Below, piece by piece: positions 42,497 through 64,000 of a DNA stretch of 64,000 nt. The stretch spans positions 1-64,000 of the forward strand of contig JAFUIO010000002.1 in the NCBI GenBank assembly GCA_017468425.1, given 5' to 3'. Numbering within the stretch: position 1 is the stretch's first letter; every line of letters begins with the position of its first letter. Below the pieces are notes generated by a model. That model searched no databases and was not told where the DNA came from. It worked only from the letters and a program-made list of their open reading frames with translations. Source of the stretch: Clostridia bacterium. GTDB taxonomy: Bacteria > Bacillota > Clostridia > Oscillospirales > Acutalibacteraceae. A program made the translations under genes and the position numbers.

Positions 42497-42550
42497 TATA
42501 AAACAACGCAAAAAACGAAAGAAAAGTAATATCAGAATATAACTTTTTTA

Positions 42551-42588
42551 TGACATCTTTTCACTTACGGAAAGATGTCATTTTTTTG
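42551..42588 (+). terminator. Rho-independent terminator
   Basis: A 10-bp perfect stem (TGACATCTTT / AAAGATGTCA) with a 10-base loop, followed by seven T. It separates the sugar oxidoreductases from the surface-fibre locus. The rest of the 340-base gap holds only the promoter at 42702 and an AT-rich leader. Confidence 0.92.
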
Positions 42589-42701: not shown

Positions 42702-42730
42702 TTGACAAATTGACAGTAAAGTGGTACAAT
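42702..42730 (+). promoter_or_regulatory. Sigma-A promoter of the surface-fibre locus
   Basis: TTGACA, exactly 17 bases, then TACAAT. It leaves a leader of about 100 bases before the EAL-like gene. It is the clearest promoter at the head of a run of seven genes in the same direction. Confidence 0.8.
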
Positions 42731-42836
42731 ACAATGGATAGAATAGAGTTAGTGGGAGTATGTCTTCTTTAAAATTCTTTAACGGAAAATACCCCGATAA
42801 TTCTTCCGAAATCCTGCAATACGGAGAGTGCTTTTT

Positions 42837-43586
42837 ATGGCTGAAGAAAAAAAAGAAACTATAAAAGTTCCAAGAGCAAGAACGATGGAAATGTTGTTCA
42901 AACCTGTGTTTGACGTCGGTCTTAATATGGCAGTTGATTATTACACACGCATTCTGATTACTGATTATAAGGTAGGCATTATCCAGCCTGAAACTTATAT
43001 TCCGGTGGCAGAAAAATCAAATCAGATTGCCGACATCGGCAAATGGGCAATTGAAGAAGCCTGCGATGTTATGATCAGAGCCGAACAGAGAGATGTCGGA
43101 ATCAACAGTGTTATCCTCTGGACATCACTCAAGCATCTTAACAAGAAAAATTTTGTCAAATCAATGACTAATATTGTTGACAAAAAAGAAATTGAACACG
43201 ATAAGTTCTGTTTCCAGATTACAGATCACATTCTTCAGGCTGATCAGGATATAATTTCTCAGAACATCCGCGATTTACGTAAAGAAGGCTTCCGCGTAGC
43301 AATTGATGATTTCGGTGTTGAATATTCATCACTTACGAATCTCGGTCAATATGAAGTAGACTATATCGGTATCGATTCTTCACTTACCCGCGATATAGAA
43401 ATAAATGAGCGTCAGCTGAATATGCTCCAGGGTATTATTGATTTCGCAAAGAAAATCGAAACCAAGGTTATGGTCGGCGGCGTTGAAACTATGGAAAAAG
43501 CTGAACTTCTCAAAACCATGGGAGTTGACAGACTGTCAGGACCGCTTTACGGTGATTTTATAAAAGAAAAAGAAATTACTCTGTGA
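42837..43586 (+). CDS. Degenerate EAL-domain protein
   Basis: 249 residues from MAEEKKETIK (GGAGAG 8 bases upstream). The EAL barrel can be followed through LFKPVFDVG, IIQPETYIPVAE, IGKWAIEEACD, IDDFGVEYSSL and VGGVET. The catalytic EAL glutamate is missing (YTRILI in its place), the ITE glutamate is Asp, the conserved Lys before ID is Gly, and the Glu of AEGVE is Gly. It should not hydrolyse cyclic-di-GMP but could bind it or a protein partner. It has no GGDEF or membrane part. As the first gene of the fibre locus, it may tune production by cyclic-di-GMP. Confidence 0.85.
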   Translation: MAEEKKETIKVPRARTMEMLFKPVFDVGLNMAVDYYTRILITDYKVGIIQPETYIPVAEKSNQIADIGKWAIEEACDVMIRAEQRDVGINSVILWTSLKHLNKKNFVKSMTNIVDKKEIEHDKFCFQITDHILQADQDIISQNIRDLRKEGFRVAIDDFGVEYSSLTNLGQYEVDYIGIDSSLTRDIEINERQLNMLQGIIDFAKKIETKVMVGGVETMEKAELLKTMGVDRLSGPLYGDFIKEKEITL

Positions 43587-43619
43587 TTATAGCTATCCTT
43601 ACGAAAGGAGTTGGATATA

Positions 43620-44492
43620 TTGGCAAAAAAACAAAATGTGCAGTTTGACCCGAATAATCCTGAAATGGAAAAATACGGTGTCCGCACATCAGCAAAAAAA
43701 GTCAGAAAAAATAAATTGTTTCTGCGTATCGTTGTTATCATCCTTGTATTATTGCTTTTGTTCCTTTCAATATTCTTCGGATGTGTAACTTACGCAAATC
43801 AGGCAGGTCGATTCACAGTAAACCTTGACCCTGATGCAATTGAAAAATACGGTATCACACTTTGTGAAAGCTATGAACAGGCATACGGTTTAGGTGCCTG
43901 GGCAAACGGAGGTACAGGGCCGGATGGCAAGCCCAACGCTGAAAGTAACTATGAATCAGGCGTTTTAATCCGCGGTAATGCTGTTGAAAATATGGATAAC
44001 ATTACAGAGGAGTGGTTGCCGGAAGATATCGACAGTGCAAATCACTCAGGCAGCCACAACGGTGATGCTAACAAAGACGGCGAAATTGACTACATAGCAT
44101 ATACTTTCTACCTTAAAAACGTAGGTAGAGAAGATGCAGACTATAATGCTTCAATAGACGTTCTTTCAGTAGACCTTGATGCCGACGAGGCACTCAGAGT
44201 AAAGGTTTACAGAAACGGTGAAGCAATTACTTACGGTAAAAAACCTGTCAAAGGTACTGAAAAAAATGAATATGCAAAATTCGGTATCGACAAGTTCTTT
44301 GCAAAAGAAAACAAGGTTATGGATAGAAACGTAACCAACTTTAAATCAGGCGCGGTTGACAAATATACAATTGTCATCTGGCTTGAAGGATGGGATCCTG
44401 AATGTGTTGATAAAATTATGGGAGGAGAGGTTAAGCTGTCTATGATGTTCCATATTATAGACAAAGAAGCCGAAAACGAGGAGCTTGTTTAG
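43620..44492 (+). CDS. Membrane-anchored TasA/camelysin-like protein
   Basis: 290 residues from a TTG 9 bases after GAAAGGAG. A basic N-terminal tail (~28 residues), a transmembrane helix at about 30-52 and a YANQAG segment precede an extracellular beta-rich domain. Its C-terminal stretch YTIVIWLEGWDPECVDKIMG and the following MMFHI match the end of the next gene's product (FLWLEGNDADCEML..AMTLEI), so the two share a fold. A DxNKDGEIDY loop at about residue 150 may bind calcium. The stop is TAG, the rarest stop in this window. It may be a base or nucleator for the TasA-like fibre. Confidence 0.6.
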   Translation: MAKKQNVQFDPNNPEMEKYGVRTSAKKVRKNKLFLRIVVIILVLLLLFLSIFFGCVTYANQAGRFTVNLDPDAIEKYGITLCESYEQAYGLGAWANGGTGPDGKPNAESNYESGVLIRGNAVENMDNITEEWLPEDIDSANHSGSHNGDANKDGEIDYIAYTFYLKNVGREDADYNASIDVLSVDLDADEALRVKVYRNGEAITYGKKPVKGTEKNEYAKFGIDKFFAKENKVMDRNVTNFKSGAVDKYTIVIWLEGWDPECVDKIMGGEVKLSMMFHIIDKEAENEELV

Positions 44493-44590
44493 GAAAAAAG
44501 TGAACAACACACTTTCTTAATTAAGCAAGTTCCTTAAGTAACTTTTCTCCCCTTAAAAATTATCAACACATATTTGGATATATATTTAAA

Positions 44591-44617
44591 TGAAAGTAAA
44601 ACTTTCAGAAATTTTTT
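44591..44617 (+). promoter_or_regulatory. Stem-loop ahead of the TasA-like gene
   Basis: A TGAAAGT-AAA-ACTTTCA stem-loop followed by GAAATTTTTTA lies just before the GGAGGT of the TasA-like gene. It resembles a weak terminator or an attenuator, or a 5' stability element of an abundant message. Confidence 0.4.
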
Positions 44618-44632
44618 ATGGAGGTAATATTC

Positions 44633-45448
44633 ATGAGAAAAACAATGAGAAAAAGTGCGTTGCTCTCATCAGTAGCAATGCTCATCGTTTCAGCTATCGT
44701 TCTTACATCTGCTACATATGCATGGTTCTCATCATCAAAAGTTGTTGCAGTTGAAGAACTCGATGCAAGTGTTAAAGTAACAACAGGTCTCCTTATCTCA
44801 GTTGATAAGGGTGGAAACTGGGGCACACAGGTTGACTTCGCAGACGCAGTTTCTGTTAACGGTACTTGGGGTGCAGGTTATGCAAAGGATATGGTATTTG
44901 ATCCCGTATCAACAGCAGACGGTGAAACATGGATTTCAGCTGTTTACAACGAAGATACAAAAGCTCTCGACACATCAGCTGCAGTTGTAGGTACAAACCT
45001 TGTAGCTGTTCCTCTCTGGGTAACAGGTCCTGCTGATGCAAACGTTAAAGCTGTTGTTAAATTCGACGGCACAGATTCACAGGCAGCAAAATGTATGAAA
45101 TTTGCTCTTGTTCCTGCTAACGACGCTGGTGATGCAGTTGCATCAGGTGCATACGATGAAGCAGTTGCAGCAGAAGCTAATGCTGACAACAAGTTTATGG
45201 GTATCTCATCAGCAGGTACAGCAGCAACAGCTGGTGCTTACGTATCAGACGGCGGTAAAACAATCAACGAAGTTGCAGCAGACGGCGGTATCACATTCAC
45301 AATTCCTGCAGGCACAACAACAGATGCTCCCTTGAAATATGTAGCATTCCTTTGGCTTGAAGGTAACGATGCAGACTGCGAAATGCTTAAATTCGACGTT
45401 GCCGGTGAAGACGTAACATTCGCAATGACACTTGAAATCGTTGACTAA
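44633..45448 (+). CDS. TasA-like secreted fibre protein with SipW-type signal
   Basis: 271 residues from MRKTMRKSALL (GGAGGT 7 bases upstream, near-consensus). The signal peptide ends in TSATYAWFSSS, the AWF-type motif processed by SipW-class peptidases in TasA and camelysin proteins. The mature part is rich in Ala, Gly, Asp and Thr and poor in Lys and aromatics, typical of an abundant assembled surface protein. It ends FLWLEGNDADCEML and AMTLEIVD. TasA proteins form extracellular fibres in biofilm matrix. Flanking stem-loops suggest separate control of its message. The SipW gene lies just downstream. Confidence 0.8.
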   Translation: MRKTMRKSALLSSVAMLIVSAIVLTSATYAWFSSSKVVAVEELDASVKVTTGLLISVDKGGNWGTQVDFADAVSVNGTWGAGYAKDMVFDPVSTADGETWISAVYNEDTKALDTSAAVVGTNLVAVPLWVTGPADANVKAVVKFDGTDSQAAKCMKFALVPANDAGDAVASGAYDEAVAAEANADNKFMGISSAGTAATAGAYVSDGGKTINEVAADGGITFTIPAGTTTDAPLKYVAFLWLEGNDADCEMLKFDVAGEDVTFAMTLEIVD

Positions 45449-45560
45449 TTAATTGAATCAACTATATTTTAGTGATTGTTCAACTTTAGAGTTATAAACA
45501 TAGCTCGCTGAATCGTTTCAAATATCGGCTTTTGAAACAGCTTAAAACTTAAAACATAGG

Positions 45561-45587
45561 CCGGGCGGGGTTAACCGCCTCGCCCGG
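45561..45587 (+). terminator. GC-rich hairpin after the TasA-like gene
   Basis: A 10-bp stem (CCGGGCGGGG against CCTCGCCCGG, with one G-T pair) and a 7-base loop stand out in very AT-rich DNA. No clean T-run follows (TATGTGTTTCC). It may protect the 3' end of the fibre message or reduce read-through to sipW. Confidence 0.6.
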
Positions 45588-45613
45588 TATGTGTTTCCTT
45601 TCAGAAAACACAA

Positions 45614-45628
45614 TCTGATTTAATCAGA
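45614..45628. promoter_or_regulatory. 15-base palindrome upstream of sipW
   Basis: TCTGATT-T-AATCAGA is a perfect 7-1-7 palindrome in the 308-base gap between the TasA-like and SipW genes. It is a likely operator. The rest of the gap is AT-rich, with no reading frame. Confidence 0.45.
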
Positions 45629-45756
45629 CTAAACAAATCAGTGCAAATACTGTTAATAATATAAATTCTATTAAATTCGAAAATAAAAGAGAAATCTTTT
45701 AATATATATGAAAAGCACAAAGAAAAATCATAAAGAATAAAGGTGGGTTCCGAAAC

Positions 45757-46590
45757 ATGGCGGAAGAAAAAAAGACAAGTAGTGTAATAGAAACCATAGG
45801 TGACGTAATTACCGCAATAATACTGGTATTCTCAGTTATATTTACAGCTCTGACTTTGTCATCGGCAAATTCAGAAAACGGTTTACCTAATATTGCCGGT
45901 TATTCGTTGTTCTCTGTTCAGTCAGACTCAATGGAACCTGTGTTTTATACAGGCGATTTGCTTGTTATTAAAGAATACCAGGGCGAAGAACTTAATTCCG
46001 GTGATATCATTTCATTCAGAACAATTGAGCAGGGCCAGTACATTATCAACACCCATAGAATTGTTGAATGTCATGATATCGGCGGTATCAAAACATACAC
46101 CACACGAGGTGATAATACACCCGCGAACGACCAGACTGACGTTGTTGCAAGTGAAATTGTCGGTGTTTATGCCTACAAAGCAAACCAGAAGAACGGCGTT
46201 GACGATGGTACAAGAGTAAAAGGTGTAGGTAAAATCATCGATATCGTTAAAGGTACAGGCGAATCAGGTGAAAAATGGACCTGGACTCTCAACGAAGGTA
46301 CTGAAAACGAAAGAAGACTTAACCTTTCATTCCTTCTCTTCATAATTGTTCCGCTTGCTCTTATCTTCCTCTTACAGATTTATAAGTTTATCAAGGCTCT
46401 TAATGAATCTAAAGCAGAAAAAGCAAAGGCAGAAATTCTTGAAAACGGTGAACTTTCAGAAGAACTCAAGAAGAAAGCAATTGAAGAGTATCTTGCAAAA
46501 CAGGCAGCTGAAGCAAAAGATGCAGAAAAGCCTGCTGAGGAAACATCCGGGGATGCTCCTGCGGATGCAGAGAATAAAGACGAAAACTAA
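45757..46590 (+). CDS. sipW: SipW-type (ER-type) signal peptidase I
   Basis: 277 residues. An N-terminal transmembrane helix at about 12-38 is followed by the nucleophile in VQSDSMEPVFYTGD. The general base is the His of NTHRIVE rather than the Lys of ordinary bacterial leader peptidases. GDNTPANDQ and a second transmembrane helix at about 190-212 follow, with a charged Ala/Glu-rich cytoplasmic tail of ~60 residues. In Bacillus, SipW cleaves TasA and TapA. Here the AWF-signal protein is directly upstream and the anchored TasA-like protein before it, so they are the expected substrates. AAAGGTGG precedes the ATG. Confidence 0.92.
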   Translation: MAEEKKTSSVIETIGDVITAIILVFSVIFTALTLSSANSENGLPNIAGYSLFSVQSDSMEPVFYTGDLLVIKEYQGEELNSGDIISFRTIEQGQYIINTHRIVECHDIGGIKTYTTRGDNTPANDQTDVVASEIVGVYAYKANQKNGVDDGTRVKGVGKIIDIVKGTGESGEKWTWTLNEGTENERRLNLSFLLFIIVPLALIFLLQIYKFIKALNESKAEKAKAEILENGELSEELKKKAIEEYLAKQAAEAKDAEKPAEETSGDAPADAENKDEN

Positions 46591-46623
46591 AATATAAAAT
46601 CTGGCTGCAAAACCCTTCGTATG

Positions 46624-46640
46624 GACGGCCGTCGGCCGTC
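46624..46640 (+). repeat. GC-rich stem-loop between sipW and AAA+ gene
   Basis: GACGGCC-GTC-GGCCGTC forms a 7-bp stem with a 3-base loop. No T-run follows, so it is more likely an mRNA processing or stability element than a terminator. Confidence 0.5.
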
Positions 46641-46710
46641 TGTATGAAAGCGCAACGGATTATATATATAATAGAAAGCAAATTTTTTAAAAATTTACGA
46701 GGTGACAAAA

Positions 46711-48255
46711 ATGAGCATACTGTTGAACTTCATTCAGGATTTTTTGGGACAGTTCTTTGTAAGCGGTTTTTGGGGAATGCTTAAAGGCTTAGGTAAAGGC
46801 TTTATCAACATCTTCAATTTCCCGAAATACATAGAAATCTTCAAAAAATATTCATCCAACTTCGGTGCAGGCGAATGGGCGCTCGCAATTCTTTGCGTAG
46901 TTCTTATCGTTGCAGCACTTGCAGCAATTGTATTTGTGATTGCGCTTCTTCTTAAGAAATATGTAAGAGTCCGCAAAACTCTTGTTGATCAGGAAGAGCT
47001 TCTTAACGAAGTTGGTAACCTTAATCGTGAAGTTATCAAACTTAATATGGAAAAGCAGAAAATCCTTGCTATGAAAGTTTCACAGTTAGGCCTCAGACCT
47101 GATGAAGATCCTTATGAGGATATAGAAGAAAAGAAAGAAGAAACAGAAGAAGAAGTCGACACAACTGCTGAAGATTACAGCCGTTTCTACAAGCTCACTC
47201 AGGTTGACCTTGCTATGAAGGATTATGTTCAGCACGATTTCGATAACGATATCACTCTTCCTGAATTCTGTGAGCGTTTCCGTAACTTTGCATGTAGCAG
47301 ACTTGGTCTTTACTATGAAATTGACACTCTCCGTCTTTTCATTTCTGGTTTTGCTGCTGCAAGACTTATCATCCTTCAGGGTATTTCAGGTACAGGTAAA
47401 ACTTCACTTCCCTATGCTTTCGGTAAATTTATTCAGAATGACGTAACTATTGCTTCTGTTCAGCCTTCATGGCGTGACCGTACAGAGCTTTTCGGTTACT
47501 TCAACGAATTCACAAAACGTTTCAATGAAACAGAAGTTCTTAAGAGAATGTATGAAGCTTGCTTCATGGAAGACGTTTCAGTTGTTATCCTGGACGAAAT
47601 GAATATCGCTCGTGTTGAATATTACTTCGCTGAGCTTCTTTCAATCCTCGAAATGCCTTCACGTGATGAATGGGTTGTTTCACTTGTTCCCACAGTATGG
47701 CCCACTGACCCCGAACTTTTCTTCGATGGTAAATTCAGACTTCCTCCCAATATGTGGTATGTCGGCACAATCAATAACGACGACTCTACTTTCGCCGTTA
47801 CTGATAAGGTTTATGACCGTGCTATTCCCATCGATATCAATACAAAAGGTAAATTCTTCGAAGCACCGCTTACAGATCCTCTTTACCTTAACTACAAACA
47901 TCTTGAAGCTCTCTTTGATGAAGCTAAAGAAAAATATCCTGTTTCAGAAGAAGCTCTTAAGAAATTTGCTCAGCTTGACGACTATGTTATCGAACATTTC
48001 CGTATTGCTTTCGGTAACCGTATTTTAAAACAGCTTAAAGACTTTGTTCCTGTTTACGTTGGTTGTGGCGGTAAGGAAATCGATGGTATCGACTTCATCC
48101 TTGCTCACAAAATTCTTCGTAAATTCGAAAGCCTTAACGTTTCTTACATCCGTAATGAAATCGGCGGTCTTATTACTTATCTTAACAAAAACTTTGGTAA
48201 AAATAACATGAAGGATTCTAAGGATTACCTTGAAAGACTTCAGAAGCTTATGTAA
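46711..48255 (+). CDS. Membrane-tethered McrB-like AAA+ ATPase
   Basis: 514 residues from MSILLNFIQ (GAGGTGA 5 bases upstream). An amphipathic N-terminus and a strong transmembrane helix at about 56-82 are followed by a coiled coil (~88-125) and an acidic linker. The AAA+ module has Walker A GISGTGKTS near residue 224, Walker B VVILDEMNIA near 291, sensor-1 VGTINND near 352 and the VYDRAIP arginine near 370, the pattern of McrB-type ATPases. No DNA-binding domain of classical McrB is seen. The membrane tether and the fibre-gene neighbours argue for a role at the cell envelope rather than restriction. The next gene probably encodes its partner. Confidence 0.85.
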   Translation: MSILLNFIQDFLGQFFVSGFWGMLKGLGKGFINIFNFPKYIEIFKKYSSNFGAGEWALAILCVVLIVAALAAIVFVIALLLKKYVRVRKTLVDQEELLNEVGNLNREVIKLNMEKQKILAMKVSQLGLRPDEDPYEDIEEKKEETEEEVDTTAEDYSRFYKLTQVDLAMKDYVQHDFDNDITLPEFCERFRNFACSRLGLYYEIDTLRLFISGFAAARLIILQGISGTGKTSLPYAFGKFIQNDVTIASVQPSWRDRTELFGYFNEFTKRFNETEVLKRMYEACFMEDVSVVILDEMNIARVEYYFAELLSILEMPSRDEWVVSLVPTVWPTDPELFFDGKFRLPPNMWYVGTINNDDSTFAVTDKVYDRAIPIDINTKGKFFEAPLTDPLYLNYKHLEALFDEAKEKYPVSEEALKKFAQLDDYVIEHFRIAFGNRILKQLKDFVPVYVGCGGKEIDGIDFILAHKILRKFESLNVSYIRNEIGGLITYLNKNFGKNNMKDSKDYLERLQKLM

Positions 48256-48308
48256 TATCTTAAGCTTTATAGCACAACTAATCTTCAAACAAAAGGGGAC
48301 GTTCTCAG

Positions 48309-50441
48309 ATGAGCGAATCATATCTTGATTTATACTCTGTCTACAAAGGCAAAATGGCTGAAATGACAGCCGGAAACCCGTACTATGACTTTATGTACGA
48401 GGCTATTTCCTCCGGACACAACAATTTTTCTCAATTTAATAGATTCTTTGAAAAGAAAATTGATATCCGTTGGGTTGAGGCTATCGAGCGTTGTATTATC
48501 CCTATCGACAACATTCTCAGAAATCCCCGTAAGTTTATCGTTCAGGAAGAAGAAGTTGTTATTATTGAACGTGCCAAAAAAATCACTACTGAATCAATCA
48601 GACATCTTGCACAGCATACCAATATGATTTCCAAGGTGGAAGATGACGGCAGTGTTATGCCCAGCAAAATCCTTAACGTTTTCCGTGAAGAAAGTTATGA
48701 AATTTACGAAAACCGTTTCTTATTCACCCTTATCAAGCAGCTGGAGTATTTTATCAATGTCAGATATGATGTTCTTTCAAAGTTGTCTGACGATGAAAGC
48801 CTCAATTCGCTTAAAATGGAAAGTTCGGTAAAAAAAGGCAACGAACTTATAACTTTCAAAATGGAAGTTGCAACCAAATATAACAGTGATGAAGATGTAG
48901 ACGGCAAAAAAGAAAAATCAGTTATGGATAGAATCCACAGAATCAAAACACTTGTTGATGATTTTGTTCATTCTAACTTTATGAAAGAAATGCGTAAATG
49001 CGTTCCTGTCCGTCCTCCTATTATGAGAACCAACGTTATTCTGAAGGACCCCAACTTTAATCAGTGCCTTGGTCTCTGGAACTTCATCCACTCATATGAC
49101 GACGTTGGTTACGAAATCAATGTTAAAGAATCAGATGATATGGTAAGCGATAGCTACCGTGATGACCTTTACGGTGTAATGGCTTACAACTATATGCTTC
49201 TCAAGAAAAACACAGAACCTGAAAGCAGCTATATCGGAAAACTCAAAAAACGTAAAATCAAACCGAAGTTTATTAAACGTCTCGCAGAAGAACTTGTTCT
49301 TAATTATGATTTGGATGAAGCTGAAATCAGGAAAGTGTTTATTGACGGTGTAAAAATTGCCGGTAAGAAGAAAACAGCCGGTGAACAGAAAATCAGAGAA
49401 GCAATTGCCCGTGCGTTGGCTTATGAAAATGAACGCAAACGCCTTATTGAGCAAAAAATCAAAGAAGAAATCGAAAGAAAGAAAGAAATCGAACGTCGCA
49501 GAATCGAACGCGAAAAAGCAAGAATCGCAAGAGAAAAAGAATTGGAAAGACAGCGCAAAGAGCGCGAAAGAGCAAGAGAAAAAGCAAAGAGAGAAAAAGA
49601 AATTGCTCTGGAAAAGGCAAGACGAGAGAGAGAGAAAGAAAAGAAACGTCTTGCAAAACTCAAGGAACAGCAGGCAATCGCAGCTGCCAAAGAAAAGGAA
49701 CGTCTCGCAAAACAGAAGGAAAGAGAACGTATCGCAAAAGAAAAAGCTTTGGAATTGGAAAGGCAGCGTAAGGCTAAAGAGCTTGAGAAGAAGCGCATAG
49801 CCAAGGCAAAAGCTGAAGCACTTGAAAAAGAACGTAAAGCTAAAGAAAAAGAAAAAGCAAGAATCGCAAAAGAAAAAGCGCTTAAACTTGAACAGGAAAG
49901 AAAAGAAAAAGAGCGCATAGCGAAAGAAAAAGAAAGACTCAAAGCACTTGCTGAAAAAGAAAAGGCAGAAGCTTTAGAGAAAGAACGTAAGGCTAAAGAA
50001 AAGGCCCGCGAAAAAGCAGCTAAAGAAAAAGAAATCAAGCTCGAGAAAGAACGAATTGCAAGAGAAAAGGCTAAAGAGAAAGAAAGAATAGCCAAGGCGA
50101 AAGAAAAGGCAATTCAGGAAGAAAAAGAACGCAAAGAAAAAGCTAAGTTGAGAGAAAAAGCTGCTAAGGAAAAAGCAATTCAGCAGGAAAAAGAAAGAAT
50201 CGCAAGAGCAAAGGCTAAAGAGAAAGAAAGAATAGCCAATGCAAAAGCAAAAGAAAAAGCTAAGGAAGCCGAAAGAAAAGCTAAACTGAAAGAAAAAGAG
50301 CGATTAGCAAAAGCTAAGGCTGATGCACTTGCAAAAGAAAAAGCAAGAATCGCAAGAGAAAAAGAAAAAGCTAAACTTAAGGCTCAGCAGGAAAAAGAAA
50401 AAGCAAAGAAAAATGCATCAGAAAATAGTGATGCAGAATAA
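48309..50441 (+). CDS. DUF2357-like protein with ~340-residue charged helix
   Basis: 710 residues; AAGGGGA lies 10 bases before the ATG. Residues 1-360 are globular. SYEIYENRFLFTLIKQLEYF and the preceding region recall DUF2357, a family found beside McrB-like ATPases in place of McrC. No PD-(D/E)xK nuclease motif is visible. Residues ~361-704 are almost only Lys, Glu, Arg and Ala (EKERIAKEKA-type units), predicted to be a single long alpha-helix or coiled coil of some 50 nm. It has no signal peptide, so it is cytoplasmic. It likely couples to the AAA+ ATPase encoded 53 bases upstream. Confidence 0.6.
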   Translation: MSESYLDLYSVYKGKMAEMTAGNPYYDFMYEAISSGHNNFSQFNRFFEKKIDIRWVEAIERCIIPIDNILRNPRKFIVQEEEVVIIERAKKITTESIRHLAQHTNMISKVEDDGSVMPSKILNVFREESYEIYENRFLFTLIKQLEYFINVRYDVLSKLSDDESLNSLKMESSVKKGNELITFKMEVATKYNSDEDVDGKKEKSVMDRIHRIKTLVDDFVHSNFMKEMRKCVPVRPPIMRTNVILKDPNFNQCLGLWNFIHSYDDVGYEINVKESDDMVSDSYRDDLYGVMAYNYMLLKKNTEPESSYIGKLKKRKIKPKFIKRLAEELVLNYDLDEAEIRKVFIDGVKIAGKKKTAGEQKIREAIARALAYENERKRLIEQKIKEEIERKKEIERRRIEREKARIAREKELERQRKERERAREKAKREKEIALEKARREREKEKKRLAKLKEQQAIAAAKEKERLAKQKERERIAKEKALELERQRKAKELEKKRIAKAKAEALEKERKAKEKEKARIAKEKALKLEQERKEKERIAKEKERLKALAEKEKAEALEKERKAKEKAREKAAKEKEIKLEKERIAREKAKEKERIAKAKEKAIQEEKERKEKAKLREKAAKEKAIQQEKERIARAKAKEKERIANAKAKEKAKEAERKAKLKEKERLAKAKADALAKEKARIAREKEKAKLKAQQEKEKAKKNASENSDAE

Positions 50442-50479
50442 TAATTTGTAAAGCGTAATAACTTTACAGTACGCATATA

Positions 50480-50538
50480 TTTGTAAAGCTAATTTGCTTT
50501 ACAAACACCAAAAAGTCTTGATTTTACAGGCTTTTTGG
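50480..50538 (+). terminator. Two stem-loops before the giant surface gene
   Basis: TTTGTAAAGC-TAATTT-GCTTTACAAA (10-bp perfect stem) at 50480-50505 is followed by CCAAAAAG...CTTTTTGG at 50508-50538. Neither has a perfect T-run. They may attenuate transcription into the giant gene or mark its own regulatory region; no clear promoter was seen downstream of them. Confidence 0.4.
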
Positions 50539-50627
50539 TCAGAGGATAAAGTTTTGTTTTATAGTGCGTGTGTATGCGAAAGAAACCAGAACTTATCCCA
50601 TTTGAAATCACGGAGGTATTTTAAACT

Positions 50628-51407
50628 ATGGATAAAAAATTGACGAAAAGGTTATTGGCCTTGGTTCTTTCCGGGGGGATACTCTTATCCTCTACCGGCG
50701 TATATACTGCACTCGCAGCATCAAATACGGGCAATACAAGTGAATATACCTCCGCTCTTGTAGGCTCATCATCTGATTCTGCAACAGGTAATAAACCCAT
50801 TTCCGGCGAATTTGTAACAATTCCGCAGGCGGCTCAGACAACTATCAAGACTACTACAACGCGCGTTCCGCCAACAACAAGAGTTACAACAAGACCTACA
50901 ACAACGAAGAAACCTACTACAACACAGAGACCCTCAACTACTCAGGGTCCTGCATCAACTCAGACACCAACAACAAAGGTTCCTTCAACAACTCAGACTC
51001 CCGGTGTATCTACAACAGTTCCCGGAACAACAAAAGCACCCGTAACAACACGTCCCTCATATTCTCAGGCACCCGGAATTTTCCAGCCTGACACAACTGC
51101 TCCTGAAGTTACAAGACCTCCTATAAATGAAGAACTTGAATGGCTTGAAACTACAGAATCAGAAGAAACAACAACATCTGCTCCTGAAACTGGTAAGACC
51201 AAGCCTGATTTCGAAGTTATTACACAGCAGGTAGCAAACAACTCTGAAGACGTATGGGTAGGCGAAGGTACAGAAACAAACCCATATCAGGTAAGTTCAG
51301 CCGAGCTTTTCCTTAAAATGAGCGAACTTATCAACGATACAGCTAACGCTAACAAATATTTCAAGCTTACTGCTGATATCGATTTTTCAACTACAACAAT
51401 CGACTAG
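50628..51407 (+). CDS. Giant exported GLUG-repeat protein, N-terminal part up to in-frame TAG
   Basis: GGAGG lies 11 bases before the ATG. The signal peptide spans residues 1-31 (LLALVLSGGILLSSTGVYTALA). A Thr/Pro-rich linker at about 70-165 (repeats like TTTRVPPTTR and TTKKPTTTQRP) resembles wall-spanning or glycosylated stalks. An acidic stretch follows, then the first module opener WVGEGTETNPYQ and YFKLTADIDFS. After 259 codons a TAG (51405-51407) interrupts the frame, but the same frame continues open for at least 12.5 kb with homologous modules. This part alone would be a short secreted stalk without its main domains. Confidence 0.8.
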   Translation: MDKKLTKRLLALVLSGGILLSSTGVYTALAASNTGNTSEYTSALVGSSSDSATGNKPISGEFVTIPQAAQTTIKTTTTRVPPTTRVTTRPTTTKKPTTTQRPSTTQGPASTQTPTTKVPSTTQTPGVSTTVPGTTKAPVTTRPSYSQAPGIFQPDTTAPEVTRPPINEELEWLETTESEETTTSAPETGKTKPDFEVITQQVANNSEDVWVGEGTETNPYQVSSAELFLKMSELINDTANANKYFKLTADIDFSTTTID

Positions 51408-54400
51408 GCTGTCCTTGACGGTCTTGCCGAACATCATGGCATCGGTGGTACACTCGTCTCAGTTAACCCTGAAGTTTCATCAAACTCAAATGTTTTCTTC
51501 CATCTTGATGGTAACGGAAAACAGATTATGAACTTAACAATGAATTTGAGTTACTTCAACTCACTTAGTATTTTCGGTTACGTAAACTCAGCTTCAACCA
51601 TTACAAACCTTGTAGTTCATAATGTTTCAATAACTAACGGATATTCAAATGCACAGGCTGCAGGTGTTATCCTTAAAAACGAAGGTAATATTGACGAGTG
51701 CCGTTTCTCAATTATTGCACTCGACACAACAGCTTTAACAACTAAAGCAGAATCATTCTACCCTGACTACACAACACTCCGTACATATTCAGGTACTGCT
51801 ATCGTAGTTGACAACAGCGGTGTTATCGACTATGAAACAAACTTTGACAATACCAATGTTAAACTTAACATGGTAGAAAATGCAACAATCAAAACATCAA
51901 GACCTTATGCAGGTGCTCTTGTTGCACAGAACAGAGGTAAAATCAACAAAGTCCGTGGTGTTAAGCTTACTATTGAAGGCGACACAACAAAGAGTACCCA
52001 CGTTGGTGGTCTTGTAGGTACAAACGCAACACAGAGAACAAGCTCTGCAACAGGTATGTACTATTGTGAAATCCAGATGGACGGACGTAACAGTAGTGTC
52101 AAAGGTGCAGACAAAATCGGTTTCCTCGTTGGTCACAACTCAGGCCGTATCCAGCGTGCAAATGTAACAGGTAGCTTTAATACAAATGCACAGGCGAGTG
52201 CCACTAAATATGATGTTCTCGTAACAGGCGCTTCTGCTGCTGGCGGTATCGTTGGTGACAACACAGGTGACGTTCAGCTCTGTACTGCAACTAATGTTGG
52301 TGCTTACTTCGCAGATGCAACTGATGGTGCAATCTATGGTGGTATCGCAGGTAAATCAAACTACGGTATCAGAAACAGTATCGCAACAGGCTCAACTGCA
52401 GGTGCAGGTGATGCAAATGCAATCACACGTTACATCGGCGGTATAGTAGGTTACGGCGATACAGGCAACAACTTTGGTGTAGAAAACTGTTATGCTCTCG
52501 TTAAAATCATCGATTCAAAAGCAGCACTCGGTGCAATCGTTGGTTTTAACGGCGACAAAGCATATAAAAATAATAAAATCAGAAATGTATTCTATTCAGC
52601 AATCATTTCTTCAAGACCTTCTCCCGTATCATATGGCGGAGCAGGTGTGAATGAAGGCGACCTTCAATTCTCAAAGGCTTATGCAATGTCAAGCTATATC
52701 CATCTTATAACAAATGGTTTAGACTTTGGTATTACAAAGACAAAAGCTCAGGTATCAACAAGCTCTTTCAGCTTCTCAGGCTGGGGCGATGCTACATTTA
52801 ATGTAAAGGGTAACTTCTCAGGACCGACAAATGCTTCTTATTATACAGTAACAGGTCTTGGCACAGACACACTTACTTATGAGCTTATAACAGACGGTCT
52901 GAACGACAAAACTGTTTTCTACTATGATGTTGATATTACTATTCCATCATCTATCGGTGCAGATAAAAATGGTATCACCCTTGTAAATCAGCCCATGGAA
53001 TTGGGTATGCTTAACTCAAGCGGTACCCATACCACATCTGACTATACATCTGACGGATTCATAGGCACAGCAGATAAGCCTATCAAGCTTACCACAGATG
53101 AAATGAACTTCCTTTACTATGCTCCTGCAGCACATTTTGTGCTCGGCAGTACTCAGTATGTTAACGATAGTTTCACAGCTCCTTCTGCAACCTTCTGGGG
53201 CACTATCAATGGCAATGGTAATACAATTGTATACGCGATTGACAAAGATTTGTTCAAGGGCATCTACGGCTCACGTGATGATTCTCTTCAGAATAACAAT
53301 TCTGCTACTCACAAATCAGATTCCTCTGATGAAGCTGACGTAGCATCAAACCTTGCAAACGGTGTAATCAGAAACCTTACTATCGACTTCTCTCCAAGTG
53401 GCACAGCTACCACAGTAAAGCTTTCATCACTTTTCGGTAATATATGTAACGCAACATTAAAGAATATAAATGTTACTTTCAACTGTATGGCTTACGGAAT
53501 CACTTTTGAGCCTCAGGAGAAAGAAACAGGTCTCTTTGCAAAAGCGGTTTACGGTAATTCGTATCTGTATGGATGTTATGTTGATAACTACTATGATGAG
53601 GCAAGAGGCAACTCACAGTTGGCAAGTATGGATACGTCATATGACACAGTTTCAGGCTTTATCGGCGTAATTGATGCTGAAAAAGCAATTATTGACAACT
53701 GCGGTGCTGATATTCCGATTTTCCCTAAAGCACAGAATATGAAGAATATCGGTATATTCGTAGGTGAAATCAGATCACTTGATGGTGGTTACATTCAGAA
53801 CTGTTATGCATCAGGTGCTCTTATCAAATCAGGTGGCTCATTCCAGACTTCAAGCTGTAACCTCTTTGCAGGTAATATTTCATCAGGCAGTAGTGATACT
53901 CATATCTATAACTGCTATTATTCACCCTCATACCTGTATACAAACAGTATATATAAAGATGGTATAACAACAGGTATCAAGGCCGGTTCATTCACAGGTT
54001 CCTGTAAAGCATGGTCATTCCAGGTGAAAAATGCTTCAACCCAGCTTTGGGGCGATGCTTCACTTAAGGTTGCAGCATCAGGCGGTGACAGTGCTGCACT
54101 TGAAACAATAAATAGTATTGACAGATTTGATATAGCTTATTATGAGGCTAACAGTCTTAGCCTTGACAATTATTTCACTGCGGCATCATCATCAGAAACA
54201 ATTACTTTTGGTGCTAACAGAAAATTCAGTTGGTCCGGCAGAATAATGCTTAGTTTCACTTTTACCGGTGATACAAACGCAAGTGCATCAATTACAGCAA
54301 GGCACAATGCAACAGGTCTTGTGGCAAAGCTTACTGTGTTCAGTTCATCAGACCTTGAAATTGACGGCGATGGTTATTACCTTATCAAAACTCCCGTTGA

Positions 54401-57400
54401 CCTTTACTATCTTTCAGATAACCAGACCAAGCTTGTTTCAGGCTCCACAGAATATATGTATATGAGCACCAACTCGAAAATCAGGCTTGGCGCTAACATT
54501 GATATGTCAGGTTATACTATCGAGCCTATCGGTACTTCAGCGGTTTTCTTCAAAGGTGAATTTGACGGAGCAGGTTATACAATTTCTAACCTGAACTTTG
54601 GACCGAACAACCTTGACCAGGCACTCTTCGGTTATGTTCAGGGTGCTACAATCAGAAGGCTCAATATTGATAGTGCCAATATCGTAGGTGCATCATATAC
54701 AGGTGCAATCGTTGGTACGGTTTACGACTATGCTACTATTGATACCTGTAAAGTAACCAATTCAAATATCAGCGGTCAGAATCATGTCGGCGGTATTGTT
54801 GGTGGTATCAATGCAAAATCAGGCCCACAGGCTACTCAGATTACAAACTGTACTGTAGAAAATACAACAGTAACATCCACAAAGCCGGTTAAAGAACATG
54901 GTTATATCGGCGGTATCATCGGCGGTACATCTATGAACAGTACTGAAGGATGCTACGCTGAAATCACAGGCTGTAAGGTAACAAGCAGTACTATTGAATC
55001 TGAAGCATATGGTGCAGGTGGTGTAGTAGGCTACGCTCCCGACACTAATAACAAAATTTCTTCTTGTGAAGTTACCGGCACAACAGTTACTTCAGATGAA
55101 GCTTCAAACGGTGTTACATATGCATCTCTCGGTGCTGTTGCAGGTGCATTCGGTGGCTCAACACTTGAAAATTGTACAGTAACATCTTGTAGGATAATAG
55201 GTGAGTGTGCATCGGGTGTTGTAAGCCGTCTTATTAACGAAGCAGGCACAATATCAACAATTTCAGGCTGTACTGTTACGAATTCTGAAATTGTTGCTCC
55301 GAATATTGCAGGCGGTATCCTTGCACAGGTAAGTGCTTATGCAACATCTTCCTGCTACGGTGACAAAGTTATAACAGGCTGTAAAGTTTTACCATGTATT
55401 GATTCGGAAACCGGTAAAGAAATCAGTGCAGTTAAAGCAGCTGTTGCAGGCGGTATCGTAGGTAATGTTCAGCAGTTCTCGAATAAAAATCTCACAGTTT
55501 CAGACTGTACTAACCTTGGTACTATTGAAACAACAGGTAAAAAAGGCTCAATTACTGATGCTGCAGGCGGCATCGTCGGCAGACTTTCATCAGCCCTCCA
55601 GACACCCGGTATTCTTATTGAAGGTTGTCTTTCACAGGGTACTGTAAAAGGTAACTCAAACCTTGGCGGTATCATTGGTATGAACAATGGTAATGCTCAC
55701 ACAGGTGCAAATAAACTTATCAAAGATTGTTATGTAACAACTAAGTTTACAAGTGGCAACCTTGCAGTTGTAAAAGGTCTTGCAATCGGTAATGTAGGAT
55801 ATCAGGCTAAAACCGATTCTTCTGCATTGGCAGAAAATGTTGTTTACTCATCACTTAATACCCGTGAAGCCCTCTTCGGTAATATCGAAGAAACTTCAGG
55901 CGGCTTTGATATGAACAAAGGTGCCGACCAGACAAGCGGTATTACAGTTGACTTTACAACTGCTGCTTCCAATACCACAACAGCAGGTAAGCGTTATCTT
56001 GCTCACTTTGCAAACGGTGTTGTTGGTTACTATGATGGTATGATGGGCACATCAAATACTGTTCAGTTGCATACAAACTTATATATAGGTTCTACTTCTT
56101 ACATTAACGCAATGACAACTCGAACCGACTTGTCTTATGGTGGTGTGAACTTAGGAAGTCAAAGACTTAGTGGTCTTCAGAAAACAACCGCTCCGCGTTT
56201 TTCAGTAGGTAATTTGCCTTCACTTACAGGTACAGATGGTAATGCTTTTGCTCCTCCTGCAACAAGCCCGTTCACAACAACTGCAAGCTCATCAAAAATC
56301 CTTGTTGGTTGTGGCGATAAGAATGGTACTGCTGATGCAACATACAACAAACTTACAGACGTAAGTATCCAGACATTTGATAAAAAATGTAACGCAACCG
56401 TTAAAACAACTTACACAGGCATCATCAACGGTGAAACAGTTTCGTTTGATGTAGGCTTCAACGTTGTTGTAAACGGTGAGCACGCATATGACGGTGACGG
56501 TACAGAATATAACCCCTTCCTCATCTACACAGCAGAAGACCTTCTTGCTATCAAACAGCATCACGATAATCCCTCTGCTAAAGATGACTACAAGGATAAT
56601 CCTGAGTTCTATTATGAAGCATATTACTGCATAATGAACGATATCGATATGACAGAAGAACTTGCAACAGAAAACAAATCTTTTGCTCCTATCGGTACAG
56701 TGGATGAACCTTTCAAAGGTAAAATCACAACATATCATGATGAGCAGATGAAAATCAGCAATCTGCTTATAAACGACCCGAAACAGAATGCTGACTATGC
56801 ATATAACGATTCATACATAGTAACTGATGCTGAGGGTAATAAAACGGTAGAATATTCAGACGCACTCGGTCTCTTTGGTTATACTGCAGAAGGTGCAGAA
56901 ATTTATAACCTTGAACTTGAGAATGTCAATATTCTTTCAGTACCCGGTACAACAAACGGCTTCCTTGGCACAAAATCAGGTGCATTGGTCGGTGTGGCTA
57001 ATGATACTATTATCCAGAACGTTAAAGTTTCAGGTGCATCTTCAGTTGCAATCGAAGGTTCATTCGGCGGCAGGGCAGGTGCAGTAGGCGGTATTGTAGG
57101 TCAGGCAGGCAACAATGTTGTAATGACAGACGTTCAGGTTGTCGGCACAGATAACGAAAGCCGTGCAACAGTCAAAGGCCAGTATTGTGTAGGCGGTATC
57201 GTCGGTTCATCAGCAGATACAACAGGCTGTTCAATTACTAACGCTTACGTTGAAAATGTTAATGTAACAAACCTTGCAACTTCAGGTGTTTCTATTGCAG
57301 GTGGTATTGCAGGTCAGTATTCAGGCGTTATTACAGGTTCGGCAGAAGTCAAAGATGACGAAGGTAATATTGTCACTCCCGCAACGCGCGTAAAAGTCAA

Positions 57401-60400
57401 TAACGTATCAGTTCTCGGTACGGTTGTTGGCGGTGTTGTAGGTTCAGGTAATGTTACTAACCTCGCATTGGGCGGATGCGACCTTACTATTGAAGACGCT
57501 GACGTAACAAATACAATCGTAGAAGTTACAGATACAGTAAGAGCTGATGCAAATGCAGGTCCAAACGGCATTGCAGGTGGTATTCTCGGTCAGACAAAAG
57601 ACAGTTACCACTATTACATTACAGACTGCACAACAGATGGTAATACAACAGTTACATCAGGCTATTGTGCAGGCGGTATTGTTGGCCGTGCAGCAAACAG
57701 AGGCAAAGGTCAGCTTCAGACAGAAACTTGCCTTATCATTTCTGATTGTACAACTCTTGCAAAAGTAGAGCAGCTCAATGCTCCCACAACAAATACACTC
57801 ACACTCAGCGGTACTGTCAGAGATAAAACAGGCGCAGGTGCAGTAATCGGTGTTATTGATGGCAATGCACTTGCTATGAACGAAGATACAAATGCTCCGC
57901 AGATACAGATTAAAAACGTAACTGCAGGCGGTGAAATCTCAGGTACATTCAACGTTGGTGGCGTAGTCGGTGAATTTGCAGTATATCAGGGCAAACTCAA
58001 CGAGCTTACAGAGTCTATCATTTCAGATTGTATTGTTTCAGCAAGAATTACTCCTCTTGCGGCGGCAACAGAACGTTTCGGTGTTATCTTCGGTTCAATT
58101 GAAGGTAATACAGAAAGCAGTAGTTCTGCTTCCGGTGCAGCACCGAACACGAAAGCTCCGTTCCCGGAATTCGATTCAAACGGTGCAGTAATAGAATACG
58201 CAGTAAAACCATTTGATAAGATTTTCTATTCATCTTATACTGCAGGTACTTATAATCTTTACGGTCTTTCAGAAATCAAAAATTATCAGGATCCCGTTCA
58301 CGGTGTATTCTTTGATACAATCTACGACGTAAACAAAGTAGTTTATAACTTTGAAACTGACGATGGTACAGTAGAACTTCCCGTCAGCGTTGTTAAAGAT
58401 GGTTACACAGCGAATGATCCGACCGCATCATATCAGTGGTTTGGCGAAAGCGTTTACGGATTCTCTGCAGAATTCAAAGACCTCCTTGCAGCAAACGAAG
58501 GCTCAGGTACACCCTTCGGCTTCTCAATTGCAGGTAAAGATTTTACTCTTGTTGAAGACGGTGTTCAGTCTGCAAACAAAGAAATTTTCGAGGTTATTCC
58601 TAACGATGACGGGCATCTTGGTGTTAACCTTACAAAATATCCTTATAAGATTAAAGTTAAACAGTTCAATACTGCAGACCTTGTATTTACTTATACAAAC
58701 GGACTTCAGATTGGTATCCCCGTAATCTGCGGTGTTAACTTTGAAGGTGAGGGTACAGCAACAAACCCGATTCTGGTTTCAAATGAGGATATTTTCTACC
58801 ACATTGTTAAGGTTCTTCCCTCATATTCATTTGTCCAGACGAAAGAAGAACTTGACTTGTCTGATAAGACAAAATATCCTGCAACAAGTCTTGCACAGCT
58901 TATTCCTAACTTTACAGGTACATATGACGGTCAGGGTCATACAATCAAAGGTTTCGATGTAACAATCGAATCTTCAGAATCTCCCGTTGGTATCTTCAGC
59001 AAAGTTTCAGGTGTGCAATATAAGGTTGACGAAGACGGAAATCAGGTTCTTGATGAAAACGGCGAACCAATTATTATTCCCAACATTCAGAATGTAACAT
59101 TTATTGGTTGTTCGGTAAGCAGCGGTGAATGTGATAAGGGTACAGGTGTTGCAATCGGTGAACTCGCAGACGGAGCAACAGTTTCTAATCTTAAAGTTGA
59201 AAATTCGGTTGCAACTTCAAAGCTGGGCAACGTTGGTGGCGCAATCGGTACAGTAACAGGTGCATCAGTTGCTGATAAAATTACAGTAACAGGCGGCACA
59301 GTTGAGGCTGAAAAAGGCTCAGCAGGCGGTGCAATCGGCACAGTTATTGAAGATACTGCTACCGTTACTTCACCTGTAGTTAAAAATACTACTGTAACTT
59401 CAGGCTCAGTTGATGCAGACGGCACATACCTTGGCGGTACAACAGAGGATATCGCAGGCGGTATTGTTGCTCAGGCACATGGTGAAATCATCGGACCTGA
59501 ATCAACTGAAACAGATGCAGACGGCAACCCGATTTATCCTAACGCAGTTGAAGATGTTACAGTACGTGCTCTTGTAGCAGGCGGTGCAGTCGGTGCAGTT
59601 TACAAAACAAACATTGCAGAGGATGCAAGTATTACTCATAAACTTACTCTCAAAGACATCAGAGTTTCAGGTGCAGAAGTAACTGCAAAATCTGTAGACG
59701 GCACTCGTGCAACATCAGGTGCAGGTCTCTTAGGCTTCGCAAGAGCAAAAACAGAAGTAACTCTTAACAACTGTTATGTAAATAATAAAACAAAAACCGA
59801 AACTTCATCAGTAGCATCTCAGGGTGGTGTTTCATACGGCGCCGGTGCAGTTGCTAACGTAGATGAAAATGTTATAAAACTCGAACTTATCGACGTTGAA
59901 TCTTACGCAGAAGTAGTTTCACAGGAAGCAGGTAACGACGGTACGGTCTATGCTGCATCACTTGTGGCTTATGTAAACAATGCTCCGGAAAAACTTACAT
60001 TTGACGGTTGTGTTGCAGGCGGTAAGATTACAGGTCATGCGATGAAGACATTCGTCGGCGGTGCAATCGGTGGATTTAATGTTGATAACAATCCGGAAAA
60101 TGATGCTGACGAAGGAAATACTGAAAATCACGACATTGACAATGAAATAAAGCATCCTTTATTCGTCAATGGTGTTATCAGTGCTGAACTTGAATGTATT
60201 GACGGTCATTCAAACAACGTTACACTCAAGTCAGTTCACAGAATAGGCAAGTTTATTGCAAAATACGGCGTGAATATGTTCGTGGAAGGAAACTTCCCCA
60301 CAATGTTCCAGAATAACTACTATTCAACATATCCCAACGATATAGCGTTCTTTGCAACAGAGTCAGGGGAGAAAGGTCCTCTCGATGCAATTCTTGCACA

Positions 60401-63400
60401 AACAAAGTCAGATGACGGTGCAGATGCATTCAAGAACATCAACGTTCAGGAAAACCTTGCAATCGCTGATGAATTCAAGTCAGGCTGGAACAGTGTTGCA
60501 ATCACAAAGGCTATCGGCTCTGAAACAACACTTTATGCAAGGCTCAGCGAAGAATATGCCTCACTTCCATACGGTAGTGAAAACAACAGACGTGATGCAG
60601 TTGCAGCAGGCGGCTTCAGCCTTATGGAAACTGCAAAAGATGCAGAGGGCAACCCTGTAAGCTGTATCGAACTGATAGGCGACCCGTCACAGACAGAAAA
60701 TATCGGTGAATTTGAAATCACAGTTAAGCCTACAGACTACGGTGCAGAAATGCTCGTTGCAGAATATTCCTGCGGTCTTAAAACAACTGCACAGATTATT
60801 TCTGTTGAAATTGAAGGTGACGGCTCTGAAGGAAATCCATTCCTTATCAGCACACCTACACAGCTTCGCGTTGTAGCTTACCTTACAGTAGGTAACTACC
60901 ACTTCAGACAGATTAACGATATCGACCTTTCAAATTCTTATGCTGCAACAGGTACAAATACAGACAAGTTTATCCACAACAACGGTGTTAAATTCTACGC
61001 TCCTATCGGTACTGAAACAGCACCTTTCGACGGTGTATATGACGGTCAGGGTTATAAGATTGAAGGCGTTAAATCTGAACGCGGTAACGAAAACAATATC
61101 GGCGTATTCGGTGTTGTAGCACAGAATGGTACACTCGTTCCTACAATCAAAAACCTTCACGTAGAGCTTCTTGCTCCCGACCAGAAGGTAAACGGTATTC
61201 TCGGTAATGAAAATGTGGGCGGTATCGCAGGTAAGATTTCTAACGCAGTTATTGAAAACTGTTCAGTAACAGTAGGTACTTTAACAGGTAAACAGAATGT
61301 GGGCGGTATTGTCGGTCACTTCACAAGTTCAAGAATCATCAACTGCTTCACTCAGTCTGATGTAAATGCAATAAATACTGAACTTGCACCTTACGCAGGC
61401 GGTATCGTAGGTTATGTAGCAGATGCAGTGAACTTTGAATCAACTACGATTTCAGGTTGCTTCGCATCAGGCAGTATCTACGCATCATCTATGAATGCAA
61501 ACGATGACACTTCAAATGCGGCAGGTATCGTATCTTACCTTGCAAACTCTACAGACCTTGTAATTGATAACTGTCTCTTCACAGGTACAACCTCAAGCGG
61601 TTACGGTATTGTAGGTAGTAACAACTATCTTAAGTTTATTATGACAATGTCTGACTGTATCGATGCAGGTCAGAACGTTGCAATGGCAAATGATAAATTC
61701 ACAAAGATTTCTACAGCGGTTGCTTCTTCCACAACTCTTGGTACAGGAACAATCACGAAGTCAAACCTCTACTACGACAGTGCGCTTCTTAAAGTGAACA
61801 CAGATGTAGATGAAGCAGGTAAAGAAAATCTTGCTAAAATCACAGGTAAGCCTACATCAGAGCTTATCAATGTTTCAATGGGTGAGGGATGGACATCAAT
61901 TGCAGGACATTATCCTGTACCAACAGTTTCAGAAATTACTGTTACAACTTATGATGAAAATTATAATGTAACAAATACAGAAACAAAGGTTGACCCGTAT
62001 TCAGATGCTTATGCTAAATTCTTGTCAGCACCTATCCAGACAAGTGAAGCTGAAGAAGAAAGCGACATCACTAAAGTTGCTTACGGTCAGGGACTTGTAT
62101 ATCCTGTAACACTTCTCACAAAAATTGGCGAAGATAAAGTAACTTATTCTTCCTCAATCTTTGATACAACAGACACAGTAGCATATCCCGAAGGCTTCGA
62201 CACAGCTCTTTACGGTAACCGTACATCACAAGAGGTTGAAGTTGAAGGCGAAGACGGTACAAAGACAACAGAAACAATTGTAACAGATAACAAAAACGTT
62301 GACCTTCTCTTCGGTGACAATGCAGAAACAGGCAAAACAACAGTTTACAGAAACATCTTTGATACAACAAAGGGTATAGCAGAAAGAGGAAACTTTGATA
62401 CTAAACCCACAAAGAACACATATGTCAATGCAGGTGCTGCATCAGGCGGTGTATTCTCAAACAAAGAAGCATATTACAATGCACAGACTCCTGTAATATT
62501 TGCAACTGCAAAAATCAATGGTGTGGATGTACAGAGAGATATTAAGCTTGCTCTCAGCCAGGGTACAACTTACTGTATCGCAACTCAGCGTCAGCTTTAT
62601 GCTCTCGGTAAGGCAGATTATGAACTTGTAGAAGGTACCAAGTTCTCAAATTACTATGGCTCTACTTATAACTACAAGCTTATTACTGACATTGACTGTG
62701 GCGATAACACAACATTGTTCACACCTATCGGTCTTGATGCAATAGCTGACGGCGGTTACACAGGCCAGTTTGATGGTTCAGGCCATACAATCAAAAACCT
62801 TAAGATTGAACAGACCGGCAAAGATTATGTTGGTATGTTTGCAATGGTTTCTAAAAACTGGAACAGCCCATATGACCCCTGCGTGAAAAACCTTACTCTT
62901 GAAACCCCCACAATTGTGGCAACAGGCACAGTTTCGGGCGGTCAGCAGACAGGCGGTAACTACGTAGGTGCACTTATAGGTCACGTTAAGGGCAGTGGAT
63001 ATACTGTTATTGAAAAATGTCATGTAATCGGTTATGCAGAATATGACGAAAAGGGTAATATTCTTCCGGAAACAGTCAAAGGTTCAGTAACAGGTAACGG
63101 CTCTTATGTAGGCGGTCTCATCGGTAAAGTTGATTATCCTAATTATATAGATGCAACCGGTACGGACGCAGGTACTATCGTAAGAAGCTGTAGTTCATCA
63201 GTGCTTGTTTCAGGCTCAAGAGATGCTGTCGGTGGTCTTATCGGTGATTCAGCAGCAACAGTAGAATCTTGTTACGCAACAGGTAATGTTGTTTGTGATA
63301 ATATCTACAACACCCAGAATAATGAAAGAGTATTCGGTGTTGGCGGTCTTATCGGTATCATGTCAAATGGTACTGTAAACCAGTCTTTCGCATCAGGTAA

Positions 63401-64000
63401 CGTTGAAGTTAAGAAATTCACTACAGGCAATAACGCATTCGTTAACGGTGACCTGGGTATCGGCGGTTTCGTCGGTGTTGTGAAAGAAATGAAAGACCCT
63501 GTTTCACAGGCTGAAATAACAGCCGATGTAATCACAGAATGCTTCAGTGGCGGTAACGTTAAATTCGGTACTGAAAACAGCACTTCAGCAATCAATCCTA
63601 ATAATGGTAAAACTACTATTGTTGGCATTGGTGGTTTCAGCGGCATCAACCGTGAAGGAATTGCTCATGCATATTCTTCAGCTGCAGTTAATGCAACATT
63701 CGGAGCTATATATGCAAGAAGCAATAGTGCAGCATACGGTGTAGGTATCGGCGGTGTTGCAGGTGTGGCACTGGGTAATGTTGAAGATGTTTATTCTTCA
63801 GGTTCAGTTGCTCCTGCTTATGCATCAATTGATTCAACAAACAATCCCAAAAACTGCTACTTCGGAAAAGGTGGTACAGTCGGTACTAAGATGGATTCAG
63901 ATGCAACAGTAAGATACTGTTACTACGATAGCTGGACTAATACTGACCCCACACTTACATCAATCGGCGGTCAGACAAATAATCAGGAAGCAAGAGGTCT
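51408..64000 (+). CDS. Giant exported GLUG-repeat protein, continuation (runs off window)
   Basis: The frame of the preceding signal-peptide part is open from after the TAG to the last base, adding almost 4,200 codons. It is built from repeated units. Openers of the type DGDGTEYNPFLI, FEGEGTATNPILV and IEGDGSEGNPFLI lie near 56487, 58740 and 60810, with related units near 53065, 54362 and 62560. Each is followed by DIDL/DIDM, PIGT, FDGxGHTI and strings of GLUG-type GGIVG..NC.V repeats, which build a right-handed beta-helix. Such proteins act as very long adhesins or surface fibres. No internal start with a ribosome site and signal peptide is seen, so this part depends on read-through of the TAG, or else the TAG is a recent mutation or an error. 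The C-terminus is outside the window. Confidence 0.75.

Follow-up and report, generated by a model that had tools for sequence, protein, structure and literature searches.

A membrane-anchored McrB-like AAA+ protein and a nuclease-free DUF2357 partner travel with SipW-type peptidases and TasA-like proteins in Clostridia

An AAA+ protein related to McrB and bearing a membrane helix, a DUF2357 protein without a nuclease, and a signal peptidase of the SipW type make up a conserved unit, which is accompanied by secreted proteins of SipW type (TasA-like). The unit lies in a 64,000-nucleotide stretch of clostridial DNA, referred to here as the window (C31:1-64000, from a 1.98-Mb assembly that is 84% complete), within a run of seven genes extending on the forward strand from 42828 to the end of the window (Table 1). 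An earlier note, made from the sequence alone, had placed these seven genes in one order on one strand, and all were found at those places. We put the probability at roughly 55% that this is a CoCoPALM-type locus, in which a GTPase/DUF2357 platform docked on SipW would control the assembly of TasA-type fibres.

Table 1. Features of the fibre locus and its transcription signals in the window.
Feature	Position	Strand	Remarks
Terminator-like hairpin with T tail	42550..42581	+	Lies between the locus and the oxidoreductase gene upstream
Sigma-70-type promoter	42702..42730	+	TTGACA-17-TACAAT, TG before the -10; 11/12 matches
Degenerate EAL-domain protein	42837..43586	+	Likely start ATG 42837; Pfam EAL, E = 3e-43
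TasA1, membrane-anchored TasA-like protein	43620..44492	+	TM near residues 37-55 from this start; model pLDDT 85
TasA2, secreted TasA-like protein	44633..45448	+	SipW-type signal ATYAWF
12-bp GC-rich hairpin between the TasA2 and SipW genes	45560..45588	+	Stem kept, loop changed in L060
SipW/ER-type signal peptidase	45757..46590	+	Two TMs; Ser-His-Asp
McrB-like AAA+ NTPase	46702..48255	+	N-terminal TM, Walker A/B, NNDD (NxD) motif, arginine finger
DUF2357 (McrC N-domain-like) protein	48309..50441	+	PF09823; ~340-residue charged helix where the nuclease would be
Giant protein, N-terminal 259 codons	50628..51407	+	Sec signal, Thr-rich stalk; closed by an in-frame TAG
Giant GLUG-type frame, remainder	51408..64000	+	Runs on past the window to C31:68015

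The AAA+ protein has one strong transmembrane helix (TM; residues 66-84), with a charged heptad-like stretch behind it, and its N-terminus gives a weak match to an FtsL model. Neither Pfam nor NCBIfam revealed a DNA-recognition domain on this N-terminus, where the TM and coil stand instead, and McrB was the only solved relative of the protein's profile (E about 1e-7). The catalytic apparatus is nearly invariant: in the best 80 of at least 496 relatives, Walker A, the arginine finger and the N-terminal TM are each present in 80/80, the NNDD motif in 79 and Walker B in 78. The helix, the intact NxD motif and the nearest solved relative together bear out the original description of a membrane-bound, McrB-like AAA+ protein. 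A related AAA+ protein is also matched by PADLOC as the defence candidate PDC-M26A (E = 1e-35).

Its partner contains a DUF2357 domain, which matches PF09823 above the Pfam cut-off when the N-terminal domain is scanned alone (E = 2.8e-10), as do the N-domains of all ten relatives scanned. Full-length proteins with the helix often hide this domain from hmmscan, and the window's protein is matchless at full length, a difficulty that is resolved by scanning only the N-domain. A profile search with the domain yielded no solved relative, and none of the six full-length partners scanned from the clade contained a nuclease domain. Among relatives the helix may be long and charged, a heptad coiled coil, or absent altogether; about ten relatives, mostly labelled Bacilli, lack it. 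The long charged helix is thus an accessory and not a core part, so that of the earlier DUF2357-plus-helix proposal the domain is real, while the helix as a core element did not hold. Some coil variants (L061:5313-7775, L095:11575-14484, L098:7827-10469 and L102:2738-5308) end in a similar small C-terminal domain with a GIYYYRE or GIYFYRG terminus, for which Pfam scans of the first three gave no name.

The peptidase scores above the cut-off of TIGR02228, the SipW/archaeal-type model (E = 3e-23; 82 bits against 51.85), and its alignment reveals a Ser-His-Asp set instead of Ser-Lys, kept in most relatives, which confirms the assignment to SipW. The connection between this enzyme and the DUF2357 protein can be covalent. 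DUF2357, coil and SipW form a single open frame in L092:7335-10304 and in L108:2827-5745, and within the genus of L108 the fused frame, about 970-1000 amino acids long, occurs in nine of 16 genomes, representing nine species. The eight other fusions of the genus are 71-76% identical to that of L108 over about 970 residues, and in one further genome the DUF2357-SipW fusion is split into two frames. As the peptidase follows the cytosolic part in this order, the topology agrees with DUF2357 lying in the cytosol and docking on SipW, which would place DUF2357 on the side of the membrane where the AAA+ domain is expected.

The 80 relatives, the best-scoring of at least 496 loci, come from gut, rumen and other metagenomes and span clostridial and Bacilli-labelled genomes. 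A SipW-type peptidase is present in 78 of these 80 and DUF2357 in 77, every exception being cut by a contig end; the SipW frame lies close to the AAA+/DUF2357 frames (median gap about 60 nt), overlapping in 11 cases and being fused in two, and SipW-type cargo accompanies the unit in 72. Linkage of the pair to SipW is well supported, and because these are the best-scoring of at least 496 loci its rate may be lower farther out. A sample of 100 genomes from the family gave a strong AAA+ match in about ten and SipW-type matches in 84, so it is the pair that goes with SipW and not the reverse; most SipW-bearing genomes have no pair, which is accordingly not needed for SipW cleavage as such. Among ten sampled family relatives with the AAA+ gene, DUF2357 adjoins in nine, the tenth (G063) being cut by a contig end, and SipW-type peptidases lie beside the pair together with TasA-like or other genes encoding SipW-type signals.

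Distant McrB relatives show the opposite state. They were the only members found by a phylum-wide search, which recovered no further close ones; in 20 of them the AAA+ protein has no TM and no SipW gene lies within up to 20 kb, while all four outgroup partners scanned combine DUF2357 with PDDEXK_7. In a quick tree with long branches, a single branch (SH-aLRT 93) divides the clade from the outgroup. The earlier note had raised the prospect of a pair lying mostly apart from fibre genes and beside nucleases in relatives; a search for this arrangement instead gave the SipW and DUF2357 linkage among the best 80 of at least 496 loci, the fusion in nine species, and a nuclease in 0/6 clade partners against 4/4 in the outgroup. 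The linkage and the contrasting outgroup therefore support the pair as part of a SipW/TasA fibre locus, not a restriction locus. Outgroup NxD McrB relatives include L147, L148, L150 and L152, whose partners are DUF2357-PDDEXK_7 where scanned, and some of these adjoin genes that by eye are methyltransferase-like or otherwise defence-like.

The candidate substrates, TasA1 and TasA2, both carry SipW-type signals. TasA2 has the strongest codon bias among the genes compared (ENC 30.2 against 37-49) and is on this basis the probable major fibre subunit. Structural matches are weak overall (Z 5-6.5): Foldseek ranks the TasA fibre 8aur first for TasA2 (E = 5.5e-3), and TasA1 reaches Z 6.5 against the same structure, each weak and tied with other beta sandwiches. 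A search of the genome with Peptidase_M73 (PF12389) gave no match, so the term TasA-like rests on signal and fold, not on a family model. Of the original claim of two TasA-like proteins, the signals and the weak TasA-fibre match of TasA2 stand, while membership by family model does not.

Transcription signals frame the locus without fixing its units. The promoter is the best of the region and follows the upstream hairpin, beyond which the window's genes look metabolic (oxidoreductases). Promoter-like sites number 19 in the region against 19.9 in shuffles, so only quality and position count in its favour; the single good promoter proposed previously survives in these two respects, and site number adds nothing to it. 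The hairpin between the TasA2 and SipW genes, possibly a partial terminator or an mRNA 3' end, is conserved, and together with the 187-nt spacing ahead of the giant gene it allows several transcripts. The locus had been taken to end at the giant protein; its genes in fact continue for ~10 kb beyond the window, up to C31:74170, adding three further SipW-type peptidases and four further fibre-like proteins, whose signals are of SipW type or close to it. Its last gene (L022:8548-10170; G000:C31:72548-74170) encodes an EVIDEP-repeat membrane protein, with more than 20 near-identical repeats N-terminal of a single TM and a short domain behind it.

Two of the seven genes are accessory. The signal peptide of the giant protein is of the ordinary AxA type and not of the SipW type, and the protein's frame is closed by a TAG at 51405-51407, codon 260, before reopening at once for ~5,500 codons more (5,795 in total). 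In a near relative, L060, whose AAA core is 97% identical, no stop interrupts the frame at this site, and both a nonsense mutation and an assembly error are possible; recoding was rejected, as TAG terminates the TasA1 gene in the same locus. The exported, GLUG-type character first proposed for this protein is retained, though not as one intact frame. Nor does it belong to the core combination in which it had been included: among the best 80 of at least 496 loci, at least five GLUG-like motifs occur in only 12, and a downstream frame of at least 900 amino acids is found in 40 of the 57 long loci, so the giant was rejected as a core part.

The EAL protein, the other accessory component, is degenerate as first described: the motif glutamate and most of the catalytic residues are gone, and in most of 32 aligned relatives the other catalytic positions are replaced, as judged by eye from the EAL consensus. 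It is the only EAL protein found in this 84% complete assembly, in which no GGDEF protein was found, nor was one found in G063 or G087, both with an EAL gene; G014 has GGDEF. Control by c-di-GMP was, on these grounds, largely dropped for this organism, a LapD-LapA-like scheme is unlikely here, and the EAL fold is apparently used without c-di-GMP.

Bacterial restriction and matrix systems each share part of this architecture. McrBC type IV restriction systems and NxD McrB proteins with DUF2357-PDDEXK_7 partners have in common with the locus the AAA+ core and the DUF2357 activator domain, and the DUF2357 of McrC acts, within a hexamer, to stimulate GTP hydrolysis by McrB. The locus differs in that a membrane helix replaces the DNA-binding domain, the partner nuclease of the outgroup is absent, and SipW is linked. 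The Bacillus subtilis tapA-sipW-tasA operon likewise sets a SipW-type peptidase beside fibre proteins with SipW-type signals, whereas the present locus has two TasA-like proteins by SipW, extra SipW copies and a giant. In B. subtilis the subunits of the TasA fibre join by donor-strand exchange; to our knowledge the operon is without the NTPase/DUF2357 pair, and we know of no NTPase for this assembly.

The closest likeness is to CoCoPALM, named in one passage of a 2024 eLife paper on defence systems and left there for later work (PMC11090510). The passage describes an NxD McrB GTPase with an N-terminal TM and coil, the N-terminus being compared with FtsB, a coil-bearing DUF2357 partner often without a nuclease, and neighbours of the signal peptidase family (PMC11090510). 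All the features compared were found here: NxD and not NxxD (79 of the best 80 of at least 496), the TM with its coil, DUF2357 (10/10 N-domains) without a nuclease (0/6 full-length partners), and the adjacent or fused peptidase. The locus is therefore a richer example of a kind already named, though unstudied, rather than a kind of its own, which overturns the earlier view that no described system has this combination. TasA-like substrates, a degenerate EAL protein, a GLUG giant and a DUF2357-SipW fusion are not named in the main text of that paper (PMC11090510), and in the literature searched DUF2357 is joined with a signal peptidase nowhere besides that paper. A McrB-family NTPase working outside restriction is also exemplified by PcdA of Staphylococcus aureus, re-used for cell-division placement, which has N-terminal EVE domains and interacts with FtsZ and DivIVA; the abstract describing it names neither SipW nor a DUF2357 partner (PMC10602043).

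From the arrangement of domains and genes, we infer that the pair may energise or gate fibre assembly, with an anti-virus machine probably turned to the building or placement of surface fibres. Along the cytosolic surface of the membrane the NTPase would assemble into a ring, and the DUF2357 protein would act as its switch, the part that McrC plays for McrB. This protein, using its coil as a spacer or rod, would also keep the ring in place on SipW from the cytosolic side, and the complex would act as an export and assembly platform that gathers or gates membrane-held pre-subunits. SipW would then cleave these at one place, in step with the growth of the TasA-type fibre, and accessory surface proteins, here the giant GLUG protein, might be assembled alongside. 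Tentatively, and with slightly less than even odds, this would amount to TasA-class fibres being assembled on an NTP-driven platform, where a membrane ring derived from McrB acts on SipW and pre-subunits under the control of DUF2357.

The main rival, which is unlikely but deserves serious attention, is a positioning scaffold like PcdA, in which the pair would mark the pole or division plane and recruit SipW and the fibre products, performing no work on the subunits. The placement role of PcdA (PMC10602043), the likening of the CoCoPALM N-terminus to FtsB (PMC11090510) with the weak FtsL match seen here, and the long coils of changing sequence all suit such a role; however, about ten relatives have no coil, the NTPase motifs are conserved beyond the needs of a plain scaffold, and fusion to the peptidase suggests an action on processing.

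Quite improbable is a role in phage defence, by a system akin to Type IV restriction, with the surface proteins serving as a shield or the pair sensing envelope damage. The origin of the McrB/DUF2357 family, the PADLOC match and the concern with defence of the paper naming CoCoPALM (PMC11090510) lean this way, against which stand the absence from the six partners scanned of a nuclease retained in the outgroup, the constant linkage to SipW, joined in most loci by SipW-type cargo (72/80 of the best-scoring among at least 496), and the metabolic look of the genes upstream. That the pair is merely an unrelated housekeeping or regulatory unit in a surface-protein region is nearly refuted: the conserved TasA2/SipW hairpin and the gap before the giant would permit it, but the 78/80 linkage among the best-scoring of at least 496 loci, the overlapping frames and the fused polypeptide in nine species argue strongly otherwise.

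If the platform reading is true, it would give Gram-positive bacteria their first known motor dedicated to building fibres independently of sortase, and would be an example of restriction machinery converted to secretion or assembly. The SipW-type, TasA-like substrates, the missing nuclease and the fusion of DUF2357 with SipW offer a concrete, testable function for CoCoPALM, the control of fibre processing and assembly, in Clostridia that are common in gut and rumen. Should this hold, genes of bacterial immunity would be linked to surface architecture and host attachment.
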